Below are positions 29,939 through 54,089 of a DNA stretch of 64,000 nt, in pieces. A model generated the notes under the pieces. The model made no database searches. It had not been told where the DNA came from and worked only from the letters and a program-made list of their open reading frames with translations. The stretch's first letter is position 1; each line of letters starts with the position of its first letter. Source of the stretch: Caulobacter soli (GTDB lineage: Bacteria > Pseudomonadota > Alphaproteobacteria > Caulobacterales > Caulobacteraceae); the NCBI RefSeq assembly GCF_011045195.1, contig NZ_CP049199.1, positions 4,013,501-4,077,500 on the forward strand. Direction: 5' to 3'. A program made the position numbers and the translations under genes.

Positions 29939-30385
29939 CTAGAAAGACTTCCCCGGCGCAGTAGTCTTGCTCTCGGGCGCCGGCTCCAGCCCGATTGATA
30001 GGCGGACAGGCAGCAGCATGCCCTTGGGCGGCGCTTGCGACAGACGGTGGCCCACCAGCAGGGCCTGCAGGTCGGCGTTGGGCTCGGGATGGGCGAAGAG
30101 CGCGAAATCGACCTTGCTGATCACGCCCTGGCGATCGATCCAGACCAACAGCGGCAGTTGCAGGCGGCTGTCAGCCGCCGGTCTGGAGATCTGGTCCAGA
30201 TAGTCGCGCAGCCGCACGGCGGCCGGGTCTGACCTGCCGAGTTGATCGGTGATCGCCTGATTGACCAGACCGGCATAGGCCACCCAGGCGGCGGGCGCGG
30301 CCTGAGGCGACACCGGCCCCGCCAGGGTGGGCGTCGCGGGCGAGAGGCCGACGACCGCGGCGAGGGAGGCCAAAAGTCTGCGCAC
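29939..30385 (-). CDS. Periplasmic TonB-C-like protein, last gene of the adhesin locus
   Basis: A 148-residue exported protein starting at a GTG (30385) with a signal peptide (MRRLLASLAAVVGLSPATPTLA). The mature part has LPLLVWIDRQGVISKVDF, LVGHRLSQAPPKGMLLPVRLSI: the beta-alpha-beta pattern of a TonB C-terminal domain without the anchor helix or Pro-rich spacer. It resembles the C-terminal halves of the TonB gene at 46254 and the STN gene at 53367. It is 11 nt after the Skp-like gene. It may be a free periplasmic partner or decoy in the energy module; this is inference. Confidence 0.72.
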   Translation of the reverse strand: MRRLLASLAAVVGLSPATPTLAGPVSPQAAPAAWVAYAGLVNQAITDQLGRSDPAAVRLRDYLDQISRPAADSRLQLPLLVWIDRQGVISKVDFALFAHPEPNADLQALLVGHRLSQAPPKGMLLPVRLSIGLEPAPESKTTAPGKSF

Positions 30386-30396
30386 AGTAATAGCCT

Positions 30397-31005
30397 CTAG
30401 CGGGTCGCGGCTTGCGGCGCGGCCGGCAGGACCTCGCGATTGAAGCTGATGGTGGTCATCGTCGCATCCAGGCCCTTGACCACGTCGGCGGTCAAGTCGT
30501 TGGCCAGGTTGCCGCCGAGCACCGAGTTGCGGTCGACCAACAGGCCGCAGCCCTTGGCCTTGTAGGCCTGGGCGATCACTGGCTGGGCGGCGGTGGAGAT
30601 CTGGGCCAGGGCTTTCTCGCGGGTGGCCTCGATCTCGCGCGAGCGCTGCTGGGCCTTGGCCTGCATGGCCTGGACGCGCGGCGCCAGGGCCTGCTCCTTG
30701 GCCTGGCGCTGAGCCGGCGTCAGCTTGGCCTGCTCGGCCTGATAGGCCTTCAGGTCGACGTCCAGCGCCTTGCGGTCGGTCTCAACCTCGGCCTGGGCGT
30801 CCTGGGTCAGCTGCTGCAGGCGCGCGGAGGCGGCCGCCCCGACCTTGGCGTTGGCGAAGATCGCCTCGCGCGACAGCAGGCACACGCCGGGAACAGGGTT
30901 GCCGCCCAGCGGCTGGGCGGCGGGAGCCTGGGCCAGGGCCGGCGCCGCTGCGCTGGCGCACAGCAGGGCGACGAGCAGGGATTGGCGGATCATGACTTTA
31001 CGCAT
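30397..31005 (-). CDS. Skp/OmpH family periplasmic chaperone-like protein
   Basis: A 202-residue exported protein, with alternative starts at 31005 and 30993 and a signal peptide ending PALAQ. The mature part has VCLLSREAIFANAKVGAAAS at the Skp core strand position, then a long charged coiled coil (about 65-145; LTQDAQAEVETDRKALDVDL onwards) and a return strand with KGCGLLVDRNSVLGG, the usual OmpH layout. Skp holds unfolded outer-membrane or secreted proteins. Its place next to a 4000-residue secreted adhesin suggests a dedicated chaperone. Its start region overlaps the sapC-like stop. Confidence 0.85.
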   Translation of the reverse strand: MRKVMIRQSLLVALLCASAAAPALAQAPAAQPLGGNPVPGVCLLSREAIFANAKVGAAASARLQQLTQDAQAEVETDRKALDVDLKAYQAEQAKLTPAQRQAKEQALAPRVQAMQAKAQQRSREIEATREKALAQISTAAQPVIAQAYKAKGCGLLVDRNSVLGGNLANDLTADVVKGLDATMTTISFNREVLPAAPQAATR

Positions 31006-31807
31006 CCTCGGTCTTGGGCGCGACGGATTTGGCCATCGCCGGTCGGGGTTTGGCGGAGACTTTTGATAGCGCGGCGACGGCCGCCGCGCCGCTCTCGCGC
31101 GCCAGCAGGTCGGTGAAGCGCTCCAGCGAGGCCAGGTGGAAATGCACCAGGGCCAGCCAGCCCTTGCGGTGCCAGTCCAGCACCACCTCGTCGGGCAAGG
31201 CCGCGAACCGGGCCGGGTCGACGACCTGAAAGCCGCCTAGGCTCAGGGGCTGGCCGCCGGCCGGGCGGGCGTCGGCCTGCTGGGCGATCAGCAGGTCGTG
31301 CTCGACCAGGGCCGCGCCGAAGGCTCGGGCCTGCAGGTGCTGGGCATGGAACTCACCGCAGAAGGCCATGGCGCCCTCGGTCAGCGCCGAGGGCTTGCCG
31401 TCCTCGAACAGGGCAGCCCCGCCCTCCCCGCCCACGACGATCCGGTCGGACGCCATGTCGATCCCCAGAACCAGGTTGTCGCCACCGGCCTCGATGAACA
31501 CGAACGGATACCGGCGCACATAGGCGGGCGCATACATCCCCTCGGCCCAGCGCCCCTCGGCGACGAAGCGGTTGTCCGCGCCCAGGCCCAGGATGGCCAT
31601 GGGGAACGGCGTCTCGCCTTGCGAGAACACCACCGGATAGCCCCGAGCCGCCGAGGCAAACTCCACCAGGGTCAGCGGCGCGGCGTTGGTCTGGGCGGCG
31701 AAACCATAATCGCCGTCCTTCAGGCGTAGGGCCCCGTGGACCAGCGCGTTCAGCGGCTGGGGGTCCTGGTAGAACAGCGGCAAGGGCTGCCTGGCGAGAT
31801 CAGTCAC
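30998..31807 (-). CDS. SapC family protein
   Basis: A 269-residue protein starting at a GTG (31807) with GGAGA just upstream. It shows family segments FAAQTNAAPLTLVEFASAARGYPVVF, AILGLGADNRFVAEGRW, YVRRYPFVFIE and LVLGIDMAS. SapC was named from the Campylobacter S-layer locus but its biochemical role is unclear; related genes often stand beside TonB receptors and secreted-protein genes in Caulobacterales. There is no signal peptide, so it is probably cytosolic. It lies 36 nt downstream of tpsA and its stop overlaps the Skp-like start region. Confidence 0.88.
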   Translation of the reverse strand: MTDLARQPLPLFYQDPQPLNALVHGALRLKDGDYGFAAQTNAAPLTLVEFASAARGYPVVFSQGETPFPMAILGLGADNRFVAEGRWAEGMYAPAYVRRYPFVFIEAGGDNLVLGIDMASDRIVVGGEGGAALFEDGKPSALTEGAMAFCGEFHAQHLQARAFGAALVEHDLLIAQQADARPAGGQPLSLGGFQVVDPARFAALPDEVVLDWHRKGWLALVHFHLASLERFTDLLARESGAAAVAALSKVSAKPRPAMAKSVAPKTEDA

Positions 31808-31843
31808 GCAAATCTCCGTTACTTCAGCTTCAGGACCCGGCGC

Positions 31844-34800
31844 TCAGTTCGCCGGGCAGGCGTCGTTGGTGGACGGATCACAGGCATCGGCGCCGAGACC
31901 GAACCCGATGACCGACACCGTGATAGTCGACGGACGATCGTTGCGGCGACTTTGCTGCATCGCCTCAGCGACCTCCTGGACAGCACTGGCCGCCGCGCTT
32001 GAGGCATCTAGATTGCCGCCAACGTCCACCGCGTTGGTCGGCACGCCGATCGCCGCGCCCTCCACCTGGATGTTGTCGGCATTGGCCACGTATTGGGCCG
32101 CGACGATCAGGTTGCCCGCCACGCGGATACCGGCGTCGCCGGCGTCCACCGTGCCGCGTGGCGCGACCAGCGTGACCGTCGGAGACGGATCGCCCGCGGC
32201 TGCGGCGAAGGCCGCGATGCCGGCTCCCGACACCGCCGCGCCCGCGTCCACCCGACAGAAGAAGTCCGGTGTGCAGACAAAGCGGAGCGGCGCCTGCTCG
32301 GTCGAGGTCTTGGCCCCCTTGCCGGCGTTGACGTCGCCATTCGACGACCAGATCGTCATGTCGCCGCCGCGCTCGGTGAAGATCCGGCTCTGGGCCAGCA
32401 GCAGCGAGCGGTCGGAGAAGATATTCACCTCGCCTGCCTCCCAGGCCAGGACGCCCAGGGCCTGCGGGCCAACCAGCACCTTGCCGGCGCTGTCGACTAA
32501 GTAAGGCGGTGACGCCGTCGAGCCGACCAGGATCCGGCCGCCCGGCCCCATGATGTCGATATTGCCGCCCTGCTGGGTCTGGATCGTCGAGCCTCGGATA
32601 TCCAGATTGCCCGTCGAGACCAGGGTGGCCGCGCCGTTCGTCCCGCCTTCAAGGTTGTTCTTGGTGTAACCCAACGCCGAAGGGAACAGGGTCTCGATGG
32701 CCTGATAGCCCCGAGCGTACTTGTTGAAATTGGGGCTGTCGGGGTTGTTGTAGTCGGCGCCGGTGACGGCCAGCACCTTGAAGAACGCCTTCTCGATCAG
32801 CGCCTGGCGTTGAACCTGCGGCAGGGTCTGGAAGGCGGCCCAGGCCTGGTCAGCGGTCAGGTCCGGACGAACGCCCGCACCGCCGCCGCGCCTGTCCTGG
32901 TCGGCCTGATACTGCGAGACGGCGGCGATCAGGTCCGGGGTGAACGACGGCACGTCGTCGCTCGCCGCGTCCGGATCGAGATAGGCTGCGGCGAACGCGT
33001 CCCACGCCACGCCCGGGCCGGTGCCAAACAGCACCGAGATATCGGCCCCGCTGCGCCCGACCCAAGCGTTGTAGAGGTCACCCACGGACCGGATGCCGCC
33101 GTTGGGCTTGTTGCCGACAAGCGGGCCGATGTCGCGGCCCGCCTCGATGTCGAAGAAGCCCGGACCGCCAACCTCGATTAGCGGCACGGACACGTTCGAG
33201 GCGCCCCCGATCGGCGAGCTCGACAAGGGCGTGTTCACGATATCCCTGCCCGCGACGATGCTGGTCACGTCGCTGGCGTAAAGGTTCTGCCCCTGGAAGC
33301 TGAGATTGACGATGTCGCCGCCAGCGAAGATCTGCGCTGGCTTGGCTGCGACGATCGTCATCCCGTTGGTGCTGAAGCCGACAAACGGTCCGCTGGCGGC
33401 GATCGCTCCGTCGACGATGTCGCCCGTCAGGGCGTAGATACGAATTGGCTGGTAATCCCGCGAGTGAAGGCCAGCCTCATGGACGTCGAAGCGGGACCCT
33501 GAGCCATCGATCGAGTTCCAGATGGACTCGTAGCCTGGCGGATTGAGCGGCGACGGCAGGTAAGAGCTCGGCGCGTCGGACATGCCAAATTGCGCCGCCA
33601 GGCTCAGTTGGCCTGAAATGTCGTTCACAAACCGGATCCCACCGTTGGCCAGCAGCCGCAGGTCGCCCGTCGCGGACGGATAGAGCTCGCCCGGGCCGCC
33701 GACATAGAGATCACCGTTGAACGCCGTGACCGCCAGCGAAGCCGGCAGCAACCTGCCGTTCTTGGCGTTGTCGACGCTGTCGATGCTCTCGCTGATCACC
33801 GGAGAACCATAGCCAAACAGGGTGTGGGGCATGCGCAGGGTGTCGATGCGAGCGTCGCCGGACGTCGAGGACAGGTTGAGGCTCGAGCGCGCGCTGTAGC
33901 TCTGGCCGTCGGAGAACATCCGGCTGCCATCGGCGCTTTCAGGAAGATCGAGCCAGGAAGGGTTGTAGATGCCGCCGATATCCGCCGCGCCACGCGCCGA
34001 GACGGTCAGGACGGCGTCCTGCAGCGCCAGCAGGGTCGAGACCGGTGAAGAGGCGCCCAGGTTGGTCAGGGTGAAGGCCGATCCGATCGCGCCACCGGCG
34101 GTGATCCGCCCCTCGCCCTTGGAGACGAAATAGGCGCCGCCCAGGATGTCACCCGCGGCCTCGACCGAGAGATTGCCGCCGCCGACATAGGTCACGGTCT
34201 GGACGCCGGCCCCGTCGGTGGTCTTGTACCAGGTGGTGGGCAGCGAGACCGACAGTTCGCGGATGTCGCCGCCCGCCGTCACCGCGACATTGCCGCCAAC
34301 GCTCATCACCCCTTGGCCGAACGCCCCGAAATTGATCGACGACGCCTTGGCGAAGAAGAGATCGTCCAGCGGGTTGCCCGTCTCAAGCCACGGCCACCAG
34401 AACTGCGCGGCGTAGCGCCCGTTGCTGTCGTACACCTGCTGGGCGCCGGCGATGTCGCCGCCCGCGCGGATCGTGACGTCGCCGCCGGCCTCCGGGTGGA
34501 CCTCGCCGGTGACTAGCGTCGGGACGCCGATGAGGCTGGTGTTGAGGACGGAAAGCGCTTGATCGGGGTCCATGCCCGCGACCGGCCGGCCGGCGGTATA
34601 GATCGTGCCCGGCGCGATCGTGTCACGTAGCGCCACGTCACCGGCCGCGGCGATGTCGATGGCGCCGGTTCCGGTGCGGATCATCGTGCCGGACGTGACC
34701 GTGCCGCCGCCGTTGACCCAGCTGAGGTGGCCGTCGACCGCCACGTCGCCGCGCAAGCCGGCGGCCTCGACCGCCAGCGGATCAACGCCGTCCATGTCGG

Positions 34801-37800
34801 CGCCGGCCACCAGTCGGTAGGACGTGCTGGCGCCGCCCGCTAGCGTCGCGCTGGCCAGGGGCAGCGGATTAGCCTTGGTTCGCTGTGGCGAAGGCCCATT
34901 GGCGACGGGCGCCGCCGCCGAGATGATGTCGAGCGTGGTCGGCGGCGCCTGCAGTGGCAGGAAGTCGCTGGGAATCGCTGTGCCCGCGGTGAATATGTCG
35001 CTTATGATCTTGGCCAGGTACGGGCCATAGGCCCTGACATAGGCCGGATAGTCGTTCGCCGTGACCGGTGGAGGCGGCGGCGGATTGGAAGGATCGGGCG
35101 GGCCGATTCCGAAGAGGAACAGGGCGGCGTAGCCCATGCCGGTGGCTGCGGTGCCCGTAAAGTCGTTCGGGCTGTTCTGGAAATCCAGATACTGCTGGTA
35201 GAGGCCATAGTATTGCGCGATGGCCACCGGATCACCGACCAGACCGGTCGCCGGCCCGAACAGGTAGCTGGTGTCGCCGACATTGTTGATGACGTCGTTC
35301 TGAAGCGTCGTCCACACCGGATCCACGGTTGCAAGATCAGAGGTGGGGACCTCGCCGCCGGCGCCGGTGGCCACGGCATACTGCCAGAAGCCGTCGGAGA
35401 GGCTGGCGCGGACGTCCACGTCGCCCGAAGCCCGGATGGTCAGCAGCGCCGCTTCGGTCCCGTAGCGATAGGCCAGCGTCGTCGGATCGGTCCCGGCCCC
35501 GAGATTCCACGGCGTCAGCACCCGGACGTCGCCGCCGTTGATCGTCGGATCCGGGTTGCGCAGCTCCACACCCGGTCGAGCGTGGAAGTTGGCGATGCTT
35601 GCGAACCGGCCTTCGAAGCTGAAGCCGGGATTGCGGATGAAGCCCATCAGCGTACCCGGAACGGCCGCGTCCTCGTCGCCATCGACATAGCCGTAGAAGG
35701 TCTGGTGATCGGTGTTGGCCGTGGTGGGCGTGAAGACATATTTCGCCAGATAGTCCTTGAGCTGGGCCGCATCGGTCGGCGGTGGCAGGGCCACGCCATC
35801 CAGGTCCGTCCAGCTTCCAGCCACCATCTGACCGGCGGATTCGTACCAGCCGGCAGGATCGATGATCCCGTCGAAATACTTGGTCTTGTCGGGCTGGGCG
35901 TCGGCGGTGCTCCACACCGCATAGGCCTCCAGACCGACGTCGCGCGCGCCACGGATCGTCGCGCCGCCGTCGATGACGACATTGACGTCGCCGCCGACCA
36001 GCAGCGGGGCGCGGATCGCCACCGTGCCGCCCGACAGACCGCCGGCCAGGCCGCCCGAGACGTCGATCAGCGCGCCGTTGGCGATGGTGATCACGCCCGA
36101 GCCGGCCGCGTCGACCAGCTCATAGCCGTAGGTCGGATCGAGCGCGCCGCTGGCGATCCCGCTGGTGGCCAGCCGCACCGTGCCCCCGCGTTGCGCAGGG
36201 TCGGACCCGGTGGCGATCAGCGAACCGCTCAACGCCACACCGCCCTTGCCGCTGAGCGCGATCGCCCCGCCGGCCGGACCGGAGGCGTCGATCGTCCCAG
36301 CGACGCGAACTACGCCGCCGTCGGCGTCGGCCGTCAGGGCCACGCTCCGAGCGACCAGGGTCGCGCCAGCCGAGAGCGTCAGGTCGCCCGCGCGGCTGTG
36401 CACCGCGATCTGCTGGTTGACGCCGCTGGAGGCCAGGGTCACGGCCAGGGTGTCCAGGTCGACCGCCCCGCCGACGTCCAGGCCGAACGAGCCGCCGCGA
36501 TAGCCCTTGGCCGCTCCGCCCTTGATCACGCCGCTCAGGTCGGCGCTCTTGGTCGGCGCCGAGATCGTCAGCCCGCCGGCGTCGCCGCCGCCGGCCGCGC
36601 CGGAGACGTCGAGCAGCGCGCCCTGGGCCAACACGACGCCGCCCTGGTCGGCGCTCAACGCGATGTCCCCGCCCGCAGCGTAGGCCGTCACGTCACGGAA
36701 CGGCTTGGCCACGCCCGCGGCCCGCACTACCGCGCCGTCGCCAAGGATCAGGTCGCCCGACGTCGCGCGCAGCGTGACCTTGCCGGCCGGCGCGATGATC
36801 AGCGCGGTGTCGACCAACTCCCCGCCAGTGAAGCTCAGCGCCCCGCCGAAGCTGGTGCGGTCGATGGCCTGGCCCGCCCCGGCCGCCAGGGTCAGCAGGC
36901 CGGTGGTCACGACGGCGCTGTCGGCGCCGCTGTCGGCGGTGAACACTGGGGCGGTTATCGTCACGTCCAGGCTACCGAAGTCGAAGCTTCCCTTGCCCTG
37001 GCCGACAACGCCTTGGCTGGCCGTGGCGGTGACGGCGCCAAAGCCTTGCAGAGTCTTGGCCCCGACACCGAGGTCAAGCTCACCAGCCTCGAGCGTCAGC
37101 GCCCCGGAACCCGAGGCGAACGTCAGGTCGCCGGCGATGTCGTTGACCAGGGTCAGCTTGGGGGCGGTGATGGTCACCGAGCCGCCGTCGCTGGCGAACG
37201 CCCCCGCCCCCAGCGTCAGATCCTGACCGGTGGCCAGGGTCACGTCGCCATAGAAGCCCATGGTCGAGCGGCTGTGCAGACCCAGAGCGGCGATGTTGGC
37301 GAACCTGCCCAGCAGCGCCGCGTCGACCACCAACCCTCCAGGCGTGGCGCTCGACCCGGCTCCGACGAAGGCCACGGTGTTGGCGTTGATGTCCACCGCC
37401 TTGCCGGTGAACACCGCGCCGGGGGCCACCAGCAGGTCGCCGGTCGAGTCCAAGATCGTCGAGGCCCCGCCGTCTATCCTTGCCCCGCCCCGGATGTCGA
37501 GCAGGCCGGCCGAGGTTCCCGCCACGCCGTCCAGACCCGGCACGTTGGCGCGGATCACCGGAACCGCGCCGCCGTTTGAGACACGGACCAGGGCCCCGTC
37601 GCCGGTCGCACCGCCCTTGGCGCCGATCAACAGCGGCGTGGTGTCGGCCACGGCGATCGCGCCCTTGGCTGAAAGCACGCTGCCGTCCTCGATCAGCAGT
37701 CCGGTGGCGGCATTGGGATTGGTCGCGTCGGCCCGGGTGACCAGGATGATCTCCGGGCCGGTCAGGGCCGAGCCGGCGTCGTTGGACAGCACAACACTGC

Positions 37801-44280: not shown

Positions 44281-44371
44281 GCCCCGACGGTCCGACCCGC
44301 GCTGAGGCCAGCGTGGGGTGTCATGCGCGCCCAAGGGGGAAGCGGGTAAGTGACGCATGACCACGTCGGCC

Positions 44372-46186
44372 TCAGAACTTGACGTTCAGGTCGACCTGCA
44401 TCAGGTCGATCTTGAACGGGGGACCGGAGATCTCCTGGGCGCTCATCCAGCGCGCGCCGACCGAGGTGTGGTGGCGCAGGCCGTAGGTTCCGGCCAAGCT
44501 CCAGCCCTCGGCGTTGGTCCCCCCTAGGTGGAAGTCGCTGTCGGTGAAGGCGTCCAGCAGGGCGTCGGGCTCGATGTGGCGGTAGGCCGCCTCCAGGCGC
44601 CAGTCGCCGCCCTCCTCGATCGCCGGGGCGCCAATGGCGGCCTTGACCATCCAGGCGACATCGCCGGACTTGAACACCGCCTTGCCGGCCGGGCAGACCC
44701 CGCCGGAGAGCTCCACCGAGCAGGTCTCGTTGTTGTTGGCGATCTGGCTGAGACCCGAGCTGGGATTGAACCCGCGGGCCAGGATGTCGGCGCGGTCATA
44801 GGCCAGGTTCTGGGCGTAGTGGGCGGTCAGGCTCAGCTGCAGGTCGTCGGCCAGGGCCCAGTCGATGGCCCCCGACACCGCCAGGACCCTAAACTTGCTG
44901 GCCAGGCCATAGTACTGCGGCGAGGCGGTGTTGGCCGGATCCACGGTGGTGATGTCGCGCAGGGCGAACAGGGTGTTGCCGCGCTGGGCGAAGCCTGGGC
45001 GGCTATAGTCGGTCAGGCAGTAGTCGGCGATGTTGGAGCAGGACGGCGACAGCGCGCCGGTGACGCCGGTGTAGTCGTAATAGGCCACATCCAGACTGGC
45101 CTTGATCGTGTCGGCAGCCTGCCAGGCCCCGCCGACCTGGCCGGCGAAGATCCACTTGTCCTTGTCGCTGTCGGTCTTGATCGAGGACAGAGCGGTCTTG
45201 GGGCCGTCGTCGGCGACATAGTCCAGCGGGAAGGCCCCGGCCGTGGCGAAGGCGCTGAACGCCGAGCCGATCTTGCGCTGATAGCTGCCGGCCACGCCGT
45301 CCAGGTTGACGTCGTCGTCCCAGACCAGCTCGCTCATCTGGAAGGGGTTGGCCATGCGGCCGACCAGGACGTGGGCGCCGTCGACCGGGCGATAGTCGAC
45401 ATAGGCGCGGTCCAGCCACAGGTCCTTGTCGCTGAAGTAGCCGCCCAGGGTCTGGTTGGTGGAGACGGGGTTGTTCTGCGCGCCGGTGGCGATGCGGATA
45501 TAGGCGGTGACCTGCGGATCGATGGCCGCCTCGATGCCGACCCGGGCGCGCAGGCGAAGATAGGTGCGGTCCTTGCGCGAGTTGAGGATGGCGGGGTTGT
45601 AGGGGTTGGTGGCCGGATCGGTGTTGTAGGGCGAGCCGGCGTTGATCGCCCCGATGTTGACGAAGTCCAGGGCGTTGCCGTTGTCGAAGAACCGGCCCTC
45701 GTAGCGGCCGCGCAGGTCGCCGGTGATCTTGATCCCGCGCACCCACTCCGGAACGGCTTCCGGGGCGACCAGGCCTTGGGTCTTGGCGTCGGCCAGGACT
45801 TCGGCGCGCACCTCGTCCTTGATCTGGTCGCGCACGAACTGGGGCACGTAGCGCACCGAGGTGCCCGGCTGGGCCGAGGCGGGCGAGACGGCGGCCACGG
45901 CGCTGGCGGCGCTGGCCTGGGCGGTCGTCGCGGCGGTGTTGGCGCTGGTGGCCGCCTGGGCCACGGCCTGGGCCTGGGCCGCCTCGGCTTGCGCCTGGGC
46001 GATCATCGCCTCGGCCTCGGCCGCGCCCAGCACCTTCTTCTTCACCAGGGCGCGGATCAGGTTGATGGTGGCGTTCTGCGAGGGCCCGGCATCCTGGGCA
46101 TGGGCGGCCGAAGCCAGGCCCGACAGGGCCGTGGCGCTCAGCAGGGCCAGGGCCAAGATGCGGCCGGCTTGAGTGGTGGAGGACAT
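44372..46186 (-). CDS. Putative outer-membrane porin with N-terminal coiled coil
   Basis: A 604-residue exported beta-barrel protein. I chose the ATG at 46186 (MSSTTQAGRILALALLSATA) with GGAAG upstream; earlier in-frame sequence is not coding-like. The signal peptide ends AAHAQ; residues about 30-105 are an Ala/Gln/Glu coiled coil (AEAEAMIAQAQAEAAQAQAV). The barrel starts at VRGIKITGDLRGRYEGRFFDN and ends in the C-terminal aromatic signature LMQVDLNVKF. It matches the putative-porin type seen with large exoproteins. The coiled coil could span the periplasm or bind peptidoglycan. It lies between tonB and the adhesin gene. Confidence 0.85.
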   Translation of the reverse strand: MSSTTQAGRILALALLSATALSGLASAAHAQDAGPSQNATINLIRALVKKKVLGAAEAEAMIAQAQAEAAQAQAVAQAATSANTAATTAQASAASAVAAVSPASAQPGTSVRYVPQFVRDQIKDEVRAEVLADAKTQGLVAPEAVPEWVRGIKITGDLRGRYEGRFFDNGNALDFVNIGAINAGSPYNTDPATNPYNPAILNSRKDRTYLRLRARVGIEAAIDPQVTAYIRIATGAQNNPVSTNQTLGGYFSDKDLWLDRAYVDYRPVDGAHVLVGRMANPFQMSELVWDDDVNLDGVAGSYQRKIGSAFSAFATAGAFPLDYVADDGPKTALSSIKTDSDKDKWIFAGQVGGAWQAADTIKASLDVAYYDYTGVTGALSPSCSNIADYCLTDYSRPGFAQRGNTLFALRDITTVDPANTASPQYYGLASKFRVLAVSGAIDWALADDLQLSLTAHYAQNLAYDRADILARGFNPSSGLSQIANNNETCSVELSGGVCPAGKAVFKSGDVAWMVKAAIGAPAIEEGGDWRLEAAYRHIEPDALLDAFTDSDFHLGGTNAEGWSLAGTYGLRHHTSVGARWMSAQEISGPPFKIDLMQVDLNVKF

Positions 46187-46253: not shown

Positions 46254-46961
46254 CTAGCCGGCCCGGCGGATATCGAGGGACAGGGCCACGGGCATGGCCA
46301 CGGACGGATCGGGGGCGCGCACGGTGCGGCCGACCAGGGCGTCGCGGACGGCTTGAGCTCTCTCGGAGCCGTCGACCTCGACGCGGGCGATCTTGCCGGA
46401 GGGCTCGATCCACACCCGCACCTTGGCCCGCAGGGCCGAGGATCGCAGGGCCTTGTCGCTCTCCCAGGCGCGGCGGAACTCCCCTTCCAGATAGCTGGCG
46501 TAGGCGGCGCGGTTGAACCCGCCAAAGCCGCCGACCTTGCCGCCGCCGCGTGAGCCGGAGCCATCGCCGATGGCCAGGCCGTAGCTGGACGGACCCGCGC
46601 CCTCGCGGGCGGTCAGGGCGTCGGCGCCTGGCGTTGCTGGGGCCGACGGGGCCGGGGCGCTGGGCGGCGGCGGGGCGTCGGTGGGCTGCTCCAGGGGCGT
46701 GGGCTTGGGCTCGGGCGGCTTGACGTCCGGCTTGGGCGGCGGCGGCGGAACCGGCGGCGGCGGCGGCAGGACCACGCGGGTGGTCTTCATGTCGCTGCGG
46801 TGCTCGCTGACCGTGGCCCCGCGCAGCAGGGTCAGGGCCAGCAGGGCGGCCAGGACCGCGACCGCGATGGCCACGACCGCCCCGAAGCTCAGACCCGAGC
46901 GCCGACGGCGTGGGCCATCTTCAGGCTCCTGCGGCTCCAGATAGAAGGCGCTGGCGGCCAT
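46254..46961 (-). CDS. TonB family energy transducer
   Basis: A 235-residue inner-membrane protein starting at the ATG at 46961. One N-terminal transmembrane helix (about 24-46, FGAVVAIAVAVLAALLALTLL), a Pro-rich periplasmic spacer (about 66-110), a Gly-rich hinge, and a TonB C-terminal domain (AAYASYLEGEFRRAWESDKA, LRAKVRVWIEPSGKIARVEV). This is the full TonB layout. It starts 2 nt after the exbD stop, so the transducer and proton-channel genes form one translational unit dedicated to this secretion locus. Confidence 0.92.
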   Translation of the reverse strand: MAASAFYLEPQEPEDGPRRRRSGLSFGAVVAIAVAVLAALLALTLLRGATVSEHRSDMKTTRVVLPPPPPVPPPPPKPDVKPPEPKPTPLEQPTDAPPPPSAPAPSAPATPGADALTAREGAGPSSYGLAIGDGSGSRGGGKVGGFGGFNRAAYASYLEGEFRRAWESDKALRSSALRAKVRVWIEPSGKIARVEVDGSERAQAVRDALVGRTVRAPDPSVAMPVALSLDIRRAG

Positions 46962-46963
46962 GG

Positions 46964-47371
46964 TCAGGCCCCGCCGGGGGGCCGGGTGGCGGCCATGCCC
47001 AGGCTGCCGACCCCGACCTTGGAGCACAGGTCCAGGACCTGCATGATCTGGTCGTACTGCACGGCCCGGTCGCCGCGCAGGATGATCGGGGTGTCGGGGG
47101 CTGACGCGATGATGGTGCGCAGCTGGCCTTCCAGCTCGCTCATCGAGACGGGGACGGCGTCGATCGACACCGTGCCGTCATTGGCCACCGCGATCACCCG
47201 GGCCTTGGGGGCGTCCAGCACCTTGGCCGCCGAGGCGCTGGGCAGGTCGACCTTGATCCCCTGCACCGCCGCCGTGGTCAGCAGGATGAAGATGATCAGC
47301 AGCACGAAGGTCAGGTCGACCAGCGGGGTGATGTTGATCTCGTTATAGGGCTTCTTGCCTTGGATCTGCAT
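46964..47371 (-). CDS. exbD: ExbD/TolR family biopolymer transport protein
   Basis: A 135-residue protein with one N-terminal transmembrane helix (about 18-37) that carries the conserved proton-handling Asp19 in NEINITPLVDLTFVLL. The periplasmic domain shows VDLPSASAAKVLDA, VSIDAVPVSMSELEGQL and DTPIILRGDRAVQYDQIMQV, typical of ExbD. It works with ExbB to turn proton-motive force into motion of TonB. It lies 11 nt after the ExbB-like gene. Confidence 0.95.
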   Translation of the reverse strand: MQIQGKKPYNEINITPLVDLTFVLLIIFILLTTAAVQGIKVDLPSASAAKVLDAPKARVIAVANDGTVSIDAVPVSMSELEGQLRTIIASAPDTPIILRGDRAVQYDQIMQVLDLCSKVGVGSLGMAATRPPGGA

Positions 47372-47382: not shown

Positions 47383-49104
47383 CTACTCGGCCGCGTGGAT
47401 GGCGGTGGCTGGGACGTCCTGCCAGGTCTCGGCGATGCGCTTTTCCAGCTCGTCGACGAAGATCTGGTTGTCGGCGCCGATCTCCTCGATGCGGCTCAAG
47501 AGATAGTTGTAGCCAAACAGGCTGGGGATCGCGACGGCCAGACCCGCGACGGTGGCCAAGAGAGCCGCGGCGATGCCGGGCGCGATGGCGTTGATGTTGA
47601 CCTCGCCGGCCGCCGCGACGCTGGCGAAGGTGATCATCACCCCCAGCACCGTGCCCAGAAGACCGATGAACGGGCCGCCGGAGATGGCGATGGTCAGCAG
47701 CACCATGGACTTGTTGAGCTTCTGGGCCTCGCGCACTTGCCCAGCATCCAGGGCCGAGCGGATCGAGGCGATCGACTGGGCGCGCAGGGCAAAGCGCGAT
47801 CCCGAGGCCTTGCCCTCGGCCAGGCGCTTGGCCAGTTCCCGCTGGCCGATGCGGTAGAGAGTGGCGAGCGTCGAGGCTCGACCGCCGGCCGGCAGGTCGA
47901 CGAGACCCGCATGTTCGGAGCGCGCGGCGCTGGCCCGCTCGTAGGCGTCCAGGAAGTCGTCGTTGGCCCCGCCCACCCGGGCCAGCATCAGGCCCTTGGA
48001 GATCATCACCCAGACCGCCAGGGCCAGCATCACCGCCAGCACGCAGATCACCGCCCAGGCGTCGGGGGTCAGGGCCTTGAACAGGATGCCGAAGTAGTTG
48101 TGGCCGCCGCCGTCGGTCTGCTCGGCGGTGTCGAAGGTCGCCAGGCGCGCGCCCTGGCCTTCCGACGCCGCGGCCAGCTGGAAGGCCGCCTGCGGCAGGG
48201 CTGCGCCGGCGATGCGCAGCTCGTCGATCTCACCCGTGAAGCCTTGGCCCAGGGTGGCCGGACCGGCCGAGAGGGCCCCGGCCACCTCGCCGGCCGCCTG
48301 GCCGTTGAGGTACAGGCTGGTCCTGGTCCCGTCATTGACCAGGGCGACATGGGCCCAGGTCCCGGTCGGCAGGGCCGCCCCGGCGCTCTTGACGCCATTG
48401 GCCTGCGCGACCAGCGAGCCGGCCTCCGAGGCTAGGGAGAGACCCGGCAGGGCCAGCAGCTGGCCGTCGGAAGCCGGCTTGACCCAGAAGCTGACGCTGG
48501 CGGGGCCGCCGGTGAAGGCGCCGGCTGGGATCGCCACGCCGGCGGTTCCATCCAGGGTCAGGCCCTGGCCGATCAGGCCGGGGCCGCGGGTCTCCGCGCC
48601 CGAACCGTTCAGACCGTTCGACGTGGCGTCCTTGGGCGCGCCGGCCGCGTCGAAGTGCCAGACCAGCCTGTAGTCGGGGCCGAAGGTCCCGGCCACGTCG
48701 GCGCCGCCCTTCAGGTCCTTCTTCTCCTTGGCCCCATAGTAGGCGTAGATCGCCGCCGGGGCCCCGGGCTTGAGGCCCGAGACATCCACCCAGACCAGGG
48801 CCTGCTGCTCGGCGGGGTTCCAGGTCTCGATGTGGAAGGCCAGCGGGGTGCGGTCATCGCCGGCCACGAACCGCAGGTCCGAGCCGTCGGCCTTGACGTC
48901 GTCGAAGCTGAAGTTGCCGGTGTGCAGGCGGATCAGCACCGGGGCGCGGGCCACCTCGCCGGTGATCCCGGCGGCGCTGGCGTTGAGGTTGATCTTGGTG
49001 CGGTAGGCGTAATCGGGCTGCCACCAGGCCGCCGCCGGCGTGGCGATCGCGCCCACGGCGGCGACCGCCAGGGCCAGGCCCAACATCTTGGTCTTGGTCT
49101 TCAT
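47383..49104 (-). CDS. DUF2341-LamG-ExbB/MotA fusion (proton channel with exported N-terminal domains)
   Basis: A 573-residue multidomain protein starting at the ATG at 49104 with GAGGGG upstream. The signal peptide ends TPAAAWW; DUF2341 covers about 30-135 (WWQPDYAYRTKINLN, VWVDVSGLKPGAPAAIYAYY). A LamG/ConA-like beta sandwich covers about 145-310 (LVWHFDAAGAPKDATSNGLN, VSFWVKPASDGQLLALPGL, WAHVALVNDGTRTSLYLNG). A transmembrane helix at about 350-370 and the MotA/TolQ/ExbB domain at about 440-560 (GPFIGLLGTVLGVMITF, IAAALLATVAGLAVAIPSLF) complete it. The carbohydrate- or protein-binding modules face the periplasm while the C-terminus makes the channel with ExbD. Confidence 0.9.
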   Translation of the reverse strand: MKTKTKMLGLALAVAAVGAIATPAAAWWQPDYAYRTKINLNASAAGITGEVARAPVLIRLHTGNFSFDDVKADGSDLRFVAGDDRTPLAFHIETWNPAEQQALVWVDVSGLKPGAPAAIYAYYGAKEKKDLKGGADVAGTFGPDYRLVWHFDAAGAPKDATSNGLNGSGAETRGPGLIGQGLTLDGTAGVAIPAGAFTGGPASVSFWVKPASDGQLLALPGLSLASEAGSLVAQANGVKSAGAALPTGTWAHVALVNDGTRTSLYLNGQAAGEVAGALSAGPATLGQGFTGEIDELRIAGAALPQAAFQLAAASEGQGARLATFDTAEQTDGGGHNYFGILFKALTPDAWAVICVLAVMLALAVWVMISKGLMLARVGGANDDFLDAYERASAARSEHAGLVDLPAGGRASTLATLYRIGQRELAKRLAEGKASGSRFALRAQSIASIRSALDAGQVREAQKLNKSMVLLTIAISGGPFIGLLGTVLGVMITFASVAAAGEVNINAIAPGIAAALLATVAGLAVAIPSLFGYNYLLSRIEEIGADNQIFVDELEKRIAETWQDVPATAIHAAE

Positions 49105-49169
49105 CGTGTTACCCCTCGTCGTCTTGGAGGCCGCGCGCATGGGCGGCTTGGGCTCAAGGCCCTGGAAAG

Positions 49170-50795
49170 CTAGAAGTCTGTGGAAAGCCGAACGTGGATG
49201 CGGGTGTCGCCGACCTTGGTGGAGCCGGCGTCGTCAAAGGCGCTGGCGACATCCAGGTCCCCGGACACCCGGCCCAGCAGCTTGATCCGCAGGCCCACGC
49301 CCACGCCCAGGAGGCTCGTCTGGCGCTGCTGTTCGGGCAGCGGATCGATCAGCCACACTCGCGCCGCATCGACGAAGGCCAGGGCCCGCAGCTCATCCAG
49401 CATCCCGCCCTGGGCGATGACCGGCGAGCGCAGCTCCACCGAAGCCAGCAGCCCGTTGTCGCCGATCGCCTCGCTCTGCAGGAAGCCCCGCACCGAGCCT
49501 GCCCCGCCGGCGGCGAACTGCTCGTTGGAGATCAACGGCTCGGACGCCAGCTGGCCTTCCAGGTTCCCGTAGAGCTGCAGGCCCAGCGGCAGGTCGACCC
49601 GGTCGTTGATCCCGCCATGCACATAGGCAAAGCCCCCGGTGGCCCGGTAGCGCTTGAAGTCGAAGTCGTCGGGATTGCTGCCCAGGCTACGCAGGGCGAA
49701 CGTGGTCGACAGGTCAAAGCCCAGCTGGCTGCGATCGCGCGTCAGGGTCCCCGCCCAGCCCAGGCTGACCGGATAATAGGTGATCGGCGCCTTGGAGCTG
49801 ACCTGGCCAAAGCGGGTGTCTTCCTTGAAGTCCTTCCAGGCCAGCGACGCGGTCAGCCGCTGGTAGAGGCCGCTGGGGCCGCCGCTCAGCGTCCTGGTGA
49901 ACACCCCGGTCACCGACTGGCCATCGCCCAGCACATTGGTGTCGCCGACCGTGGCCACGTCGCTGTTGGACTTCAGGGCGGTGACGTCCAGGCGCAGGGC
50001 TTGGCTGAGCGGCAGGCCGTAGGAGGCGACATAGACCTCGCTGTCGTCGGGGCGCTCGGGGGCCACCGCGTAGAAGCCGGAGATCGAATGACCCCGCCCC
50101 CACAGGTCGTCATAGCGCAGGTTGGCCTGCAGGCGGCTTTGGGTGGTGCTCTGGCTATAGCGGTTGGAGACCTCCAGCCCGCCGTGCAGGGCCAGCTTGT
50201 CCTCGACATTGAGCGCGATGTCGACCGTGCCCGGCGCGGCCCCCGCCTTCAGCTCCGGGGTCACCTGGCGGTCGGCCGAGCGGCTGTTGAGCGCCACCAG
50301 CTCGCTGCTGAACTTGTTCAGATCCGGCACGCCGCCAGTAGCGGCCGACGGCAACGCCGCCGTCACCGTCTTGTCCGAGGTATGCCTGGCCCCCGTCACC
50401 GTCACCTGGCCGACTTTGGCCTCACTGACCGCCAGCCGCACCCGCCCGCCGACCACGTTCTGCTGCGGGATCTCCACGAACACGGTCTTCAGACCCCGCG
50501 CCTCGTAGACCTTCTGCAGCGCCGCCCGCGCCTTCTCCACATCGTCCAGCGTCTTGTCCGGACCCAGATACGGATACACCGCCGCCTCGATCTGCGGATC
50601 GGACAACACCGTGTTGCCCTCCACATAGTACTCGTTGATGTCCACGCGACGCGGGGCCGAGGCCTCCGACGCAGGACCCGCCGGCGCAGACCCCACCTCC
50701 TGAGCCAGGGCCGCAACCCCGCCCAGCGCGCTCAGGCCAGCGCCCAGCATCAACGCGCGCAGCACAGCGCCGCGCGTTCCTCGCCCGTTCGACAT
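49170..50795 (-). CDS. TpsB outer-membrane transporter (FhaC/ShlB/HecB family)
   Basis: A 541-residue exported protein. The signal peptide is followed by a POTRA domain (INEYYVEGNTVLSDPQIEAAV at about 53-75; then VFVEIPQQNVVGGRVRLAVSE) and a second POTRA-like part (GQVTVTGARHTSDKTV). The 16-strand barrel begins at about 200 (LALHGGLEVSNRYSQSTTQ). The conserved loop-6 motif appears as VRGF in AGGAGSVRGFLQSEA, and the C-terminal strand ends VRLSTDF. This is the pore for the giant TpsA encoded 5 kb downstream. It is the first gene of the operon after the 148-nt regulatory gap. Confidence 0.94.
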   Translation of the reverse strand: MSNGRGTRGAVLRALMLGAGLSALGGVAALAQEVGSAPAGPASEASAPRRVDINEYYVEGNTVLSDPQIEAAVYPYLGPDKTLDDVEKARAALQKVYEARGLKTVFVEIPQQNVVGGRVRLAVSEAKVGQVTVTGARHTSDKTVTAALPSAATGGVPDLNKFSSELVALNSRSADRQVTPELKAGAAPGTVDIALNVEDKLALHGGLEVSNRYSQSTTQSRLQANLRYDDLWGRGHSISGFYAVAPERPDDSEVYVASYGLPLSQALRLDVTALKSNSDVATVGDTNVLGDGQSVTGVFTRTLSGGPSGLYQRLTASLAWKDFKEDTRFGQVSSKAPITYYPVSLGWAGTLTRDRSQLGFDLSTTFALRSLGSNPDDFDFKRYRATGGFAYVHGGINDRVDLPLGLQLYGNLEGQLASEPLISNEQFAAGGAGSVRGFLQSEAIGDNGLLASVELRSPVIAQGGMLDELRALAFVDAARVWLIDPLPEQQRQTSLLGVGVGLRIKLLGRVSGDLDVASAFDDAGSTKVGDTRIHVRLSTDF

Positions 50796-50943: not shown

Positions 50944-51474
50944 TTACAAACCTTGCACTGACAAAGACTTACAAGGCATTACATCTAGACGAGCATCACC
51001 ATTATCTTGCAACGCAGGTTGCGGCGCCGATCCCGAAACCGCCCGGCGCCGCGTCGCCGTCATGCTCTCGCCAAACCGACGCCCATAGGCCCGGCTGAAC
51101 GACGCCGCCGACGCAAACCCCAGCGCCGCGACGATCTCGCCCTGCGACCGGGACTCCCGGTTGCTCGATAGCCACGACCGGGCTTGAAGCAGCTTCAGCT
51201 CCAGCACCAACCCGCCCAGGGTCAGCCCCGTGGCCGCCAGCACCGCTCGCCGCAACCGGCTCTCGCTCACCCCCAACGCACCGACGATCGCCGAAGCCCG
51301 CGGCTTCAGCCCAAGGTTGGCCAGCACGAAACGCCTGACCCGATCGACGATGTCTGAGGGCGCTTCGCCGAGCGAATAGGCGCGCGAACGCTCTCGCGAA
51401 CGCGAGCGTCGCACCTTCACGGCCTGCTCGCGCTCGGCCGCGAAGCTCTCTTGAAAGGTTGTGGCGATCAGCAC
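50944..51474 (-). CDS. AraC family transcriptional regulator
   Basis: A 176-residue regulator. The two-HTH AraC domain occupies about residues 55-145: SAIVGALGVSESRLRRAVLA for the first HTH and GEIVAALGFASAASFSRAYGRRFG for the second, followed by MTATRRRAVSG. The N-terminal 40 residues are basic and Arg/Ser-rich, with no cupin domain, so ligand sensing is absent or limited. The gene sits between the FecR-like gene and the tpsB promoter and is the likely local regulator of the adhesin operon. Confidence 0.88.
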   Translation of the reverse strand: MLIATTFQESFAAEREQAVKVRRSRSRERSRAYSLGEAPSDIVDRVRRFVLANLGLKPRASAIVGALGVSESRLRRAVLAATGLTLGGLVLELKLLQARSWLSSNRESRSQGEIVAALGFASAASFSRAYGRRFGESMTATRRRAVSGSAPQPALQDNGDARLDVMPCKSLSVQGL

Positions 51475-51538: not shown

Positions 51539-52528
51539 TTATCCGAGCAGCACGACCCCGCCGGGCAAGCCGGTCGCGTGGACGCCCGCGACTTCGCGGA
51601 TCTGCGCAACCGCGCGGTCTAGCCGCGCCAATTGGAAGGTGCCCGTGATGGGAAAGCGCGCCAAGGCGGCATTGGCCAGGACGATACGGCCCGGGCGATA
51701 GCGGTTGATTTCCTCGACAACTTCGCTGAGCGGCTGCCCACTGAAGACCAGCAGACCGCGCCGCCAAGCCTCAACGCGAACGGGATCAACCAGCGCCACG
51801 CGCCCGTCGCCCCTGGTGCCGAACGTCATCTGCCTCCCAGCCGAAAGTTCGGTTGCCCGCCGGCCGCGATCAAGGACCGAAACCTTGCCAGCCAGACAAG
51901 AAACACAGGTTGCATCGGCGACGAGGCGGACGACAAAACGTCCGTCGCGCCCCAGCACACGGCCGGCGGCCGTGCGAATGGCGATCGCATGATCGGGACG
52001 AGTCGCGTCGACGGCGATCTCTCCCTCGACCAGCGTGAAGCCAAAGGCCCCGACGTCGTCATAACGCGCGAGACTGGTGCGGGTGTTGAGCTCGACGGAG
52101 AGACCTTGCGCGACGGCGATCACGCGTCGCTCGCCAATACCCGTGCGATAGTCGGATCGCAACTCGGCCAGCGAAGGCCACAGATCAAGCGGCGGATGAG
52201 CCGCCATGACCACCACGCCGGCCGCCGAGGCGGCAATCGCTCCGCCTAGAAAGGCACGGCGCCCCAGGACGACACGCCGCGCAGACGTCGAAGGCTCGAT
52301 CGGAACGGTTTGCGCGGATCGAGCGATCTTCCTGGCGACCCCGACCAACCGTCGACGGAGCCTGACCGCGTCGCTCAGCGCTTCGGCGTTGGCGGGCGTA
52401 CGGGCGCGCCAACGCATCAATGCGTCAACCTCGTCCGAGGTCATCTCGCCAGACCGCAAGCGAAACGCCCAGGCTAACGCCTCCTCGGCGCGCACGCGCG
52501 TATCAAGGCTATCGTCGGAGCCGTTCAT
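51539..52528 (-). CDS. FecR family anti-sigma factor
   Basis: A 329-residue inner-membrane protein. The cytoplasmic part (about 1-85) has EEALAWAFRLRSGEMTSDEV and the WRARTPANAEAL segment, the sigma-binding DUF4880 type. A transmembrane helix is at about 92-110 (AFLGGAIAASAAGVVVMAA). The periplasmic FecR domain contains VAQGLSVELNTRTSLARY and FTLVEGEIAVDA, and the C-terminus ends in the STN-like repeat (GQPLSEVVEEINRYRPGRI). It would hold the adjacent ECF sigma factor until a periplasmic signal arrives, plausibly from the STN/TonB-like protein encoded upstream. Confidence 0.93.
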   Translation of the reverse strand: MNGSDDSLDTRVRAEEALAWAFRLRSGEMTSDEVDALMRWRARTPANAEALSDAVRLRRRLVGVARKIARSAQTVPIEPSTSARRVVLGRRAFLGGAIAASAAGVVVMAAHPPLDLWPSLAELRSDYRTGIGERRVIAVAQGLSVELNTRTSLARYDDVGAFGFTLVEGEIAVDATRPDHAIAIRTAAGRVLGRDGRFVVRLVADATCVSCLAGKVSVLDRGRRATELSAGRQMTFGTRGDGRVALVDPVRVEAWRRGLLVFSGQPLSEVVEEINRYRPGRIVLANAALARFPITGTFQLARLDRAVAQIREVAGVHATGLPGGVVLLG

Positions 52529-52571: not shown

Positions 52572-53147
52572 TCAATCTTCCGCCCCACTCTTTGACGTCA
52601 TGGACGAGCTGAAAGCGAAACCGATTACCTCAGTCCCGGCAAAGCGTCCGGCGATCTGATCGGTCGCCTTCTTCATCTCGATCTGGATCATGCGTATCGA
52701 AAGCCCATAACGGTCGGCCAGTTCGCGGTGGCTCGCGCCCTCGATTAGCGTAGCCAGCACCATGTCGCGCCGACGCTGCGGCATCTCGTCCAAGATCGCA
52801 CGCAACAGCCGTAGGTCCGAATGAAGCTCAGCGCTGTCGGCTGGGCCGAGTTGATCGTCGACGACGTCGAGCGCAGCTTCCAGCTTCTGGGCTTCAAGCA
52901 GGCTCAGCCGCCGACGTTCGGTCCGAATTCGGCTATTGGCGAGGTTCATCGCCATTCGGAACAGGTAGCTGCGCGGATTGCGGATATCTTCCACGTCGTC
53001 GCGTTCGCGGGTTAGCTGAAGGAAGGTGTCCTGCAACGCATCACCGGCCGCGTCCGCGGACCCAAGCCGGCGCGCCAGCCGACGCCGCAACTCCTCGTAG
53101 TCTTCGACGAACATCCGGCGCAGACCGGCCCAGTTCAACGTCACCAT
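52572..53147 (-). CDS. ECF RNA polymerase sigma factor (FecI-type)
   Basis: A 191-residue sigma factor. Region 2 is at about 13-75: FVEDYEELRRRLARRLG, DAAGDALQDTFLQLTRE, NPRSYLFRMAMNLANSR. Region 4 is at about 115-170: LDEMPQRRRDMVLATLIEG and SHRELADRYGLSIRMIQIEM. It is followed 43 nt later by fecR, the standard FecI-FecR arrangement. It should recognise promoters in this locus; the repeated ACTGTCAC is a candidate element. An upstream sigma-70-like promoter is listed separately. Confidence 0.94.
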   Translation of the reverse strand: MVTLNWAGLRRMFVEDYEELRRRLARRLGSADAAGDALQDTFLQLTRERDDVEDIRNPRSYLFRMAMNLANSRIRTERRRLSLLEAQKLEAALDVVDDQLGPADSAELHSDLRLLRAILDEMPQRRRDMVLATLIEGASHRELADRYGLSIRMIQIEMKKATDQIAGRFAGTEVIGFAFSSSMTSKSGAED

Positions 53148-53263
53148 GACTTATGCCCCCGCCTGGGGCGGCGACGAAACGCCGTCGACGAGGGAGCGGC
53201 CAGCGGGCCGAATTCGCCTCGAGCGCGGATCTCCAGCGGGATCTGTAAACTGCACGGGCGACG

Positions 53264-53292
53264 GATACAGGATCAGCAAGGCACACTGTCAA
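53264..53292 (-). promoter_or_regulatory. Putative sigma-70 promoter for the sigma factor-fecR genes
   Basis: Read on the minus strand, TTGACA (53292-53287) and TGTATC (53269-53264) are separated by exactly 17 nt, about 115 nt upstream of the sigma-factor start. Just upstream of it, two copies of CGTGACAG on the plus strand (53317-53324 and 53339-53346) are spaced 22 nt start to start, two helical turns, as expected for a regulator site. Confidence 0.5.
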
Positions 53293-53366
53293 GCCTTTGC
53301 CTCGAATAAGCTTTTTCGTGACAGACCGAAGCAGGTAACGTGACAGTTCGACAAAAGCACGCCACT

Positions 53367-54089
53367 TCAGATCGCCGAAACCGCGATCCGAATAGGTTGG
53401 GACAACCCCACCGGCGGCGACTTGATAACCATCGTCGCCAGAACCCGGCGGATGGCGGTATCGAGCCCCGGACGCCCGCTCGATCGCAGCAGGCGCGGCT
53501 GACGCACGCGACCTTCGCGATTGATCCAGATATCGATCTGCAGGTCGTAGATGCGGTCGGCGGTCTCCGGATCACGGGCCAGGGCCTGCTTCACCGCCAA
53601 TCGAACCGTGCGGGCGTAGTCGCCAAAATCCGCGTTCTGCGCCGCTTCGAGTGCGACCTCGACGTGCAGCGTATCGAGCGTCAGCGTCTCGGTCGGTCCA
53701 CCACCCGGTGCGGTAGATTCCAGCCCGTCGGCCCCGAGGGTCGCGCCCGAGCTCACCAGGGTGATATCCTGGGGGCCGGTGTAGTGGATGATGAGATCCG
53801 TCCCATCGACCAGCATGCGAAGCGCGGTCCGTGCGGTGAACAAACCAACTACTGGCGTCGAATGTCGCCCTTCGGCGAGGCGAGTGTCGCAGACGACCTG
53901 ATCCCCCGTCACCGCGCTGTAGGCCAGCAACGCCGAAGATAGCGATTGGGCTGGAATGTTGAACAGCATGACTTTAGCCGCAGAAGCTTCATGCGACGCG
54001 GCGTTCGTCCTCTCCGTCACGACGGCGCCAAGCGTCGGCGCCGTCGTGACGGCGAACAGGATCCGGACAACGCGACGGCGGTCGAACAT
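53367..54089 (-). CDS. Periplasmic STN-domain protein with TonB-C-like domain
   Basis: A 240-residue exported protein. The signal sequence is RILFAVTTAPTLGAVV. Residues about 42-112 form an STN domain (FNIPAQSLSSALLAYSAVTG, VVGLFTARTALRMLVDGTDL, HYTGPQDITLV) as found at the N-terminus of FecA-type receptors and secretins. After a linker, about 155-240 resembles a TonB C-terminal domain (LQIDIWINREGRVRQPRLL, ATMVIKSPPVGLSQPIRIAV). There is no beta barrel, so this is a free sensor linking TonB-like contacts to the FecR-type anti-sigma factor. It is the first gene of the locus. Confidence 0.85.
   Translation of the reverse strand: MFDRRRVVRILFAVTTAPTLGAVVTERTNAASHEASAAKVMLFNIPAQSLSSALLAYSAVTGDQVVCDTRLAEGRHSTPVVGLFTARTALRMLVDGTDLIIHYTGPQDITLVSSGATLGADGLESTAPGGGPTETLTLDTLHVEVALEAAQNADFGDYARTVRLAVKQALARDPETADRIYDLQIDIWINREGRVRQPRLLRSSGRPGLDTAIRRVLATMVIKSPPVGLSQPIRIAVSAI

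Follow-up and report, generated by a model that had tools for sequence, protein, structure and literature searches.

The closest described relative of the locus considered here, which lies in a 64,000-nucleotide stretch of the Caulobacter soli genome (contig NZ_CP049199.1; the window hereafter), is the PUMA3/Pdt system of Pseudomonas aeruginosa, comprising vreA-vreI-vreR, pdtA, phdA, pdtB-exbB2-exbD2-tonB4 and PA0696, a putative porin (PMC7035377). VreA was modelled in 2009 as an STN domain joined to a TolA-like domain, with no barrel, and PUMA3 clusters were tied in the same paper to two-partner secretion (TPS), ExbBD and PA0696 in other bacteria, with repeated clusters of this type in R. palustris and Janthinobacterium (PMC2729926). 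According to a 2020 paper, exbB2-exbD2-tonB4 is a still uncharacterised putative TonB system (PMC7035377); a transposon mutation in tpsA, tpsB, the tonB homologue or PA0696 left virulence in zebrafish embryos at the wild-type level (PMC2729926). Judged from its genes, the window locus is of the PUMA3/Pdt type: in both, a barrel-less VreA (STN plus a TolA/TonB-like domain), an extracytoplasmic function (ECF) sigma factor and a FecR-type anti-sigma factor accompany a TpsB-ExbB-ExbD-TonB-porin order and a giant DUF3739 TpsA, a layout also present in Pseudomonas relatives (loci L107, L121 and L122). DUF3739 (PF12545) is present in the P. aeruginosa entries P0216-P0218 (filamentous haemagglutinin family, 4177 residues), which are taken, from size and family, to be PdtA. 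The arrangement as a whole is thus not new, its TPS-ExbBD link having been noted in 2009 (PMC2729926). In comparison with PUMA3/Pdt, the window locus forms one compact run that includes AraC, SapC, OmpH and 148-residue protein genes, no type II secretion gene was seen among the window open reading frames (ORFs) scanned, and the genome has four copies, one of them with an STN domain fused to TpsA.

It is generally held that type V secretion draws on no energy source at the outer membrane, and classical TPS systems are not known to have a dedicated ExbBD-TonB motor. The window locus shares with HMW1A/HMW1B, HxuA/HxuB and FhaB/FhaC a TPS domain and a TpsB with POTRA, and its two partners have the features of type Vb secretion (POTRA and a ShlB-type barrel in TpsB, an N-terminal TPS domain in TpsA). 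From the sequence, an energised step is plausible. The reading favoured here, with a probability a little under one half (about 0.47), is that of a PUMA3/Pdt-type TPS locus whose motor acts on the periplasmic end of an anchored fibre, with FecR reading that end. TpsB would export the DUF3739 TpsA, the C-terminal tail of which would remain periplasmic once export is complete, and the ExbB(DUF2341-LamG)-ExbD-TonB motor would use the proton gradient on that periplasmic end, either directly, with TonB grasping a strand of the tail (most plainly in the TpsA-STN clade), or indirectly through VreA, a protein that combines STN, a HasR-like TonB-box stretch and a TonB-like domain. The motor would probably carry out a last step after translocation, namely holding, tensioning or releasing the anchored fibre. 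In loci with a sigma factor and FecR, the STN domain of VreA or of a TpsA fusion would tell FecR whether the fibre is engaged and the sigma factor would then drive expression, as with TonB-dependent transducers. This scheme is built on gene content, linkage, fusion, complementarity and motif conservation, which are observed; each contact in it, and the direction of work, we infer. An action of the motor on the anchored periplasmic end after translocation is favoured by the constant set of TpsA, TpsB, motor and porin together with the short TpsB N-termini described below. A fuller statement, that DUF3739 TpsAs are exported fibres doubling as TonB-engaged transducers, with their periplasmic end grasped by a motor lacking Glu176 and an STN domain reporting to FecR, is put forward more tentatively. 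If true, it would constitute a proton-driven branch of type Vb secretion, and the FecA end-plate (STN plus TonB box) would be re-used at the C-terminus of an outgoing protein. The literature searched contained no test of the motor in TPS release, retention or retraction, and no mention of DUF3739 was found in it.

An earlier note, made from the letters of the window alone, had proposed that the motor is wired to this adhesin exporter, an idea to be abandoned if the synteny were confined to one genome. The synteny is found in many genomes, so this ground for abandoning the idea falls away, and a peculiarity of the Caulobacter soli genome is rejected. Two samples were searched for co-occurrence (249 Pseudomonadota genomes and 318 Alphaproteobacteria genomes), together with 80 named ExbB loci taken from 341 confirmed with an ExbB alignment and scanned with our own profiles over 10-kb flanks. 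Among the 249 genomes, TpsB is present in 114 and DUF3739 in 10; a Porin_5 match above 390 bits occurs in precisely these 10 (three genomes with weak matches of at most 108 bits, G145, G198 and G232, were set aside), and DUF2341 in nine of them and zero others, with Fisher tests on the two co-occurrences giving 1e-15 and 5e-18 for genomes that are not independent. In the tenth genome (G230), ExbB is truncated by the beginning of its contig, a 3,770-base piece on which ExbD and the porin also lie. Among the 318 genomes, DUF3739 is present in five, all five with DUF2341; four more DUF2341 genomes (24 to 41 bits, frames of 459 to 1873 residues) were set aside, unread, as other proteins. The TPS-motor system accounts for 14 of the 61 ExbD match rows in ten genomes. 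The 80 named loci span Alpha-, Beta- and Gammaproteobacteria and Verrucomicrobia, and contain TpsA or TpsB (74), ExbD (78), TonB (75) and the porin (71). The wiring of a dedicated ExbB-ExbD-TonB motor to the DUF3739 TPS class is thereby borne out across phyla: the class, which is found from Sphingomonadaceae to Verrucomicrobia, has its own motor in every genome of the two samples where both were searched.

Porin_5 is linked to DUF3739 as tightly as the motor is, which speaks for a HxuCBA-like scheme of capture and import, where TpsA would bind a nutrient, the porin would import the product and the Ton motor would energise uptake via the porin or other receptors. HxuA-HxuB-HxuC does combine TPS with a TonB-dependent receptor (PMC5422565), and the P. 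aeruginosa regulon is induced by phosphate starvation (PMC7035377, PMC4971064). However, the window porin is modelled as an OmpM/OmpF-like barrel with N-terminal helices, in which Pfam reports no plug domain, and Pfam found no TonB-dependent receptor among the scanned locus proteins of the window (here and below, Pfam matches are over the family cut-off unless stated); one relative (L031, in G248) has such a receptor behind FecR. Capture and import is considered unlikely, if the least so of the alternatives.

Within the Caulobacter soli genome itself (5.68 Mb, with 105 TonB-dependent receptor plug matches), a genome-wide profile search found the module in four copies, with five DUF3739 and four DUF2341 matches: each of the four DUF2341-ExbB genes adjoins TpsB, and a full-length DUF3739 TpsA lies within 20 kb of each. 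Four copies in one genome, added to the wide recurrence elsewhere, make the module more than a chance association. Three further TpsB genes have no motor; no DUF3739 match lies near them, and the tail motif described below is lacking from a 1033-residue TpsA-like frame that adjoins one of the three. The fifth DUF3739 match, a 796-residue frame with a tail, stands beside a VreA-like gene and SapC in what looks like a remnant of the module, some 25 kb past the window (G000:C1:4095000-4112000; L024 6140-10001), where the 17-kb stretch contains no TpsB and no motor. In another genome (G219), ExbB-ExbD-TonB and TpsB-porin-TpsA are on different contigs (G219:C17 and G219:C29; L038 and L039), both sets being kept. 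G520 has nine DUF3739 matches and a single DUF2341 match (loci L142-L158). The DUF2341 match belongs to a VreA-ECF-FecR-TpsB-ExbB-TonB-porin cluster, and a VreA-ECF-FecR set of its own accompanies each of the seven TpsAs whose upstream sequence is available; it looks as if each fibre had its own sensor and one motor were common to all. Such copy numbers are lower bounds: in some genomes scoring covered a fraction of the first-look candidates, as in G520, where 14 of 40 were scored for DUF3739.

TpsA, TpsB, motor and porin recur as a constant set, to which signalling is an optional addition. The FecI-FecR-type regulation that the earlier note had made part of the system is indeed present in the window; it is not core, ECF and FecR being adjacent in at least 11 of the 80 named loci, for which flanks of 10 kb were covered. 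The family surveyed for VreA was taken to be Sphingomonadaceae (the family of G146), where DUF3739 occurs in 25 of 337 genomes. Upstream stretches were read for 19 of 33 rows of this family, the rest being broken, at contig ends or left out; together with the second locus of the Caulobacter soli genome, these give eight loci (seven genomes) where STN is fused to TpsA and 12 non-fused loci. Four of the 12 non-fused Sphingomonadaceae loci keep TpsB, ExbB, ExbD, porin and TpsA, with sigma factor, FecR and VreA not found in the fetched stretch; the loci of G146:C4 and G019 likewise keep the motor, with none of the three found in the fetched stretch. Sigma factor and FecR are therefore optional, and the motor does not need the STN domain. 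This persistence of the motor without sigma factor and FecR is new here, and argues, together with the 11 of 80 named loci, against a motor for signalling only, which would do nothing but energise the VreA-FecR-sigma pathway. Such a role would fit the Ton energy required in classical cell-surface signalling and the HasR-like box of the VreA beside the motor; it is regarded as improbable. As a separate observation, an ECF-FecR pair in G248 (L031 3-2900) stands behind the porin and is followed by an ordinary STN-plug-barrel TonB-dependent receptor, and in Stenotrophomonas (L097) an STN-bearing frame at the equivalent place is cut by the end of the locus.

In the second locus of the Caulobacter soli genome, TpsA carries STN after DUF3739 and the tail motif (PF07660, 33.1 bits, over cut-off); Pfam finds no STN in the window's own TpsA. 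PF07660 is listed for 38 of 120 listed relatives of the second-locus C-terminus (146 found), and some TpsAs counted as lacking it have STN-like ends below Pfam's call. ECF and FecR accompany all eight fused TpsA-STN loci, and a VreA-type frame, searched within 2.5 kb on the same strand, accompanies none of the eight; among the non-fused loci with ECF and/or FecR, a VreA-type frame is present in 8 of 8. This split suggests that the FecR-contacting domain comes either from VreA or from TpsA itself. In one fused case, G540 (L232), the TpsA frame is broken and there is no motor in the fetched stretch; in the VreA-type frames, STN and TonB_2 pass the Pfam cut-off together in L234 and L244, and both fall short of it in L233. 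The fusion of a FecR-contacting STN domain to TpsA in one clade, with VreA missing there, is new here, no report of it having been recognised in the literature searched, and constitutes a concrete physical link between an exported protein and FecR signalling. Cell-surface signalling systems, outlined in PMC2729926, include FecA, FpvA and HasR; these have, like the window, STN next to a TonB-box stretch, FecR and an ECF sigma factor. In the present class, however, the STN domain is carried by a soluble protein or by the C-terminal end of an exported giant, and not by the N-terminus of an importer.

Pfam reports no STN in the window's VreA-like gene at E 0.01. The domain is assigned because a family profile (the window plus ten relatives) reaches E 1e-16 to 1e-11 against the HasR, FpvA, FecA and PupB signalling domains. 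The linker that follows resembles the TonB box of HasR, a receptor with its own dedicated TonB, HasB, which binds the box within a 21-residue peptide (PMC3602595). A HasR-like stretch follows STN in 18 of 21 VreA proteins beside a TpsB-motor cluster and in 1 of 16 beside TpsA alone (seven of these 16 from one genome), against a background of 2.25% per 60-residue piece; a narrower pattern found the box in 8 of 38.

Behind DUF3739, the TpsAs end in a strand motif, PS(I/L/V)IxVxV(L/T)G(Y/F)G, which is present in strict form in 95 and in relaxed form in 114 of the 120 listed TpsAs, the other six being variants by eye, and can be recognised, in looser form, in an alignment of 24 C-termini of distant loci. 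The model of the window TpsA C-terminus shows a confident β-helix followed by a helix (193-215), and places the motif in a low-confidence tail, as expected of a peptide folding on binding. A TonB-box profile was made from 23 of 30 receptors of the Caulobacter soli genome (six had no readable box in the chosen frame and one was a duplicate) and applied to 96 TpsAs, 25 of the 120 being left unscored for want of the strict motif; the tail motif falls in the top 1% of TonB-box-like spans in 26 of the 32 TpsAs with PF07660. DUF3739 TpsAs appear, in a feature new here, to end in a conserved flexible strand motif that is TonB-box-like in the fused clade and elsewhere weakly or not so. Such a conserved tail is a peptide-sized target, through which the role of exbB2-exbD2-tonB4 becomes testable.

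The same tail, with or without a Cys pair, may instead anchor the C-terminus of TpsA and so hold the protein fast in the TpsB pore, as happens in HMW1 and HxuA, with the motor serving something else. The window tail does end with a Cys pair, as do 8 of 23 distant C-termini by eye; however, the other 15 have the strand region without the pair. The TpsB profile matches CdiB and FhaC, which carry an N-terminal H1 plug helix, and in this class the first POTRA of TpsB is preceded by 7 to 49 residues (median 25; a rough estimate from 27 sequences), leaving little room for such a helix, so that a resident TpsA end may close the pore. That arrangement speaks for an anchor, which leaves the linked motor and porin unexplained; the anchor is judged unlikely too, ranking just behind capture and import.

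Regarding the motor itself, the site of E. coli ExbB Glu176 is occupied by Ala in 96, Gly in 7 and Ser in 2 of 105 parsed ORFs (of 116, 11 being unparsed and a few loci counted twice); a Glu176-less ExbB in all parsed motors is new here. Glu176 is called essential in E. coli, with unclear function, and exbB3 of Sphingobium SYK-6 also has none, its deletion giving no growth defect (PMC8599685); exbB3 might belong to the TPS-motor class. The ExbBs of the TPS-motor class keep the equivalents of Thr148 and Thr181 (Thr497 and Thr530 in the window), and the ExbD Asp is present in 121 of 121 hits readable by pattern. The ExbB profile scores best against TolQ, and the best structural match of the porin is an outer-membrane attachment porin, OmpM1 of Veillonella (8bys, 8bym). 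Both would suit a Tol-Pal-like tethering of the envelope, in which motor and porin would make the envelope stiffer near the TpsB exit site, or set its spacing there, and leave TpsA untouched. An OmpM-type attachment porin consists of a barrel, a coiled coil and a peptidoglycan-binding SLH domain; by comparison, the window porin has 18% sequence identity to OmpM1 and Pfam finds no SLH domain in it. DUF2341 and strong Porin_5 matches occur only in the DUF3739 TpsA genomes of the 249-genome sample, which argues against a general envelope system, and tethering is the least probable of the alternatives, a very improbable one.

Several observations weigh against the favoured reading. Four good-length ExbB loci (L072, L079, L129 and L135) have no TpsA or TpsB in the fetched stretch and could represent another use of the motor; the other two of the six named loci without either gene are contigs under 5 kb. 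Since Glu176 is missing in 105 of 105 parsed ExbBs, the motor may have little power or a different way of working. Of the 64 TpsAs without PF07660, only 15 have the tail motif in the top 1%, and the window's own tail is not notable as a TonB box, 18% of spans scoring equally well; the tail and VreA-box patterns were, besides, written after seeing the data, and the tail motif could equally serve as a TpsB-docking anchor. As the fused TpsAs are related, the mutual exclusion of VreA and fusion may reflect one or few events. In P. aeruginosa, deletion of vreA was reported to have no effect on the pdtA and phdA promoters (PMC4971064) or on virulence (PMC7035377).

The features of the locus are collected in Table 1. 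An ORF check placed all listed genes on the minus strand at the positions read from the letters alone, and Pfam supports most of the named families, so that the one-strand gene series is real. Three details were revised: the porin probably starts at 46186 (604 residues) and not at 46564, TonB_2 is below cut-off in the TonB gene, which probably starts at 46961, and the 148-residue protein, previously called TonB-C-like, has no Pfam match.

Table 1. Features of the TPS-motor locus, in window positions.
Feature	Position	Strand	Evidence
VreA-like periplasmic protein, 240 residues: STN, linker with HasR-type TonB-box-like stretch, TonB/TolA-type C-terminal domain; no β-barrel	53367..54089	minus	PF13103 (TonB_2) 28.7 bits; STN by family profile
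TonB-box-like stretch LTLDTLHVEV in the VreA linker (compare HasR box ALALDSLTVLG)	53655..53684	minus	pattern made after viewing sequences
ECF sigma factor, VreI-like	52572..53147	minus	PF04542 (Sigma70_r2), PF08281 (Sigma70_r4_2)
FecR-type anti-sigma factor, VreR-like	51539..52528	minus	PF04773 (FecR), PF16220 (DUF4880)
AraC-type regulator	50944..51474	minus	PF12833 (HTH_18) 56.9 bits
TpsB outer-membrane transporter with POTRA	49170..50795	minus	PF03865 (ShlB) 69.4 bits, PF08479 (POTRA_2) 55.9 bits
ExbB fusion, 585 residues: periplasmic DUF2341 and LamG (ConA-like) domains, then MotA/TolQ/ExbB proton channel	47383..49140	minus	PF10102 (DUF2341), PF13385 (Laminin_G_3), PF01618 (MotA_ExbB)
Ala525 codon of ExbB, place of E. 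coli Glu176	47566..47568	minus	
ExbD	46964..47371	minus	PF02472 97.6 bits; conserved Asp is residue 19 (Asp25 of E. coli)
TonB: membrane segment, proline-rich stretch, C-terminal domain	46254..46961	minus	PF13103 17.1 bits, cut-off 22; sequence
Porin_5 porin (PA0696-like), N-terminal helices and β-barrel	44372..46186	minus	Porin_5 586 bits
Small exported protein, 169 residues, no family	43855..44364	minus	no Pfam match
TpsA, 4004 residues, giant filamentous-haemagglutinin-type	31844..43858	minus	PF05860 (TPS domain) 74.4 bits, PF12545
DUF3739 domain of TpsA, residues 3831-3941	32036..32368	minus	PF12545 108.2 bits
TpsA C-terminal strand motif PSTITVSVIGFG, then Cys pair	31898..31933	minus	in low-confidence flexible tail after helix (model)
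SapC-family protein, accessory	30998..31807	minus	PF07277
OmpH/Skp-type periplasmic chaperone, accessory	30397..31005	minus	PF03938
Exported protein, 148 residues	29939..30385	minus	no Pfam match; TonB-C-like by eye and loose iterative profiles only

Adjoining the TPS locus are a DUF6968 gene (54964-55371) and, at 55290-61000 on the minus strand, an RHS-repeat protein of 1388 residues and a 518-residue frame with Big_9/cadherin-like and RHS repeats.

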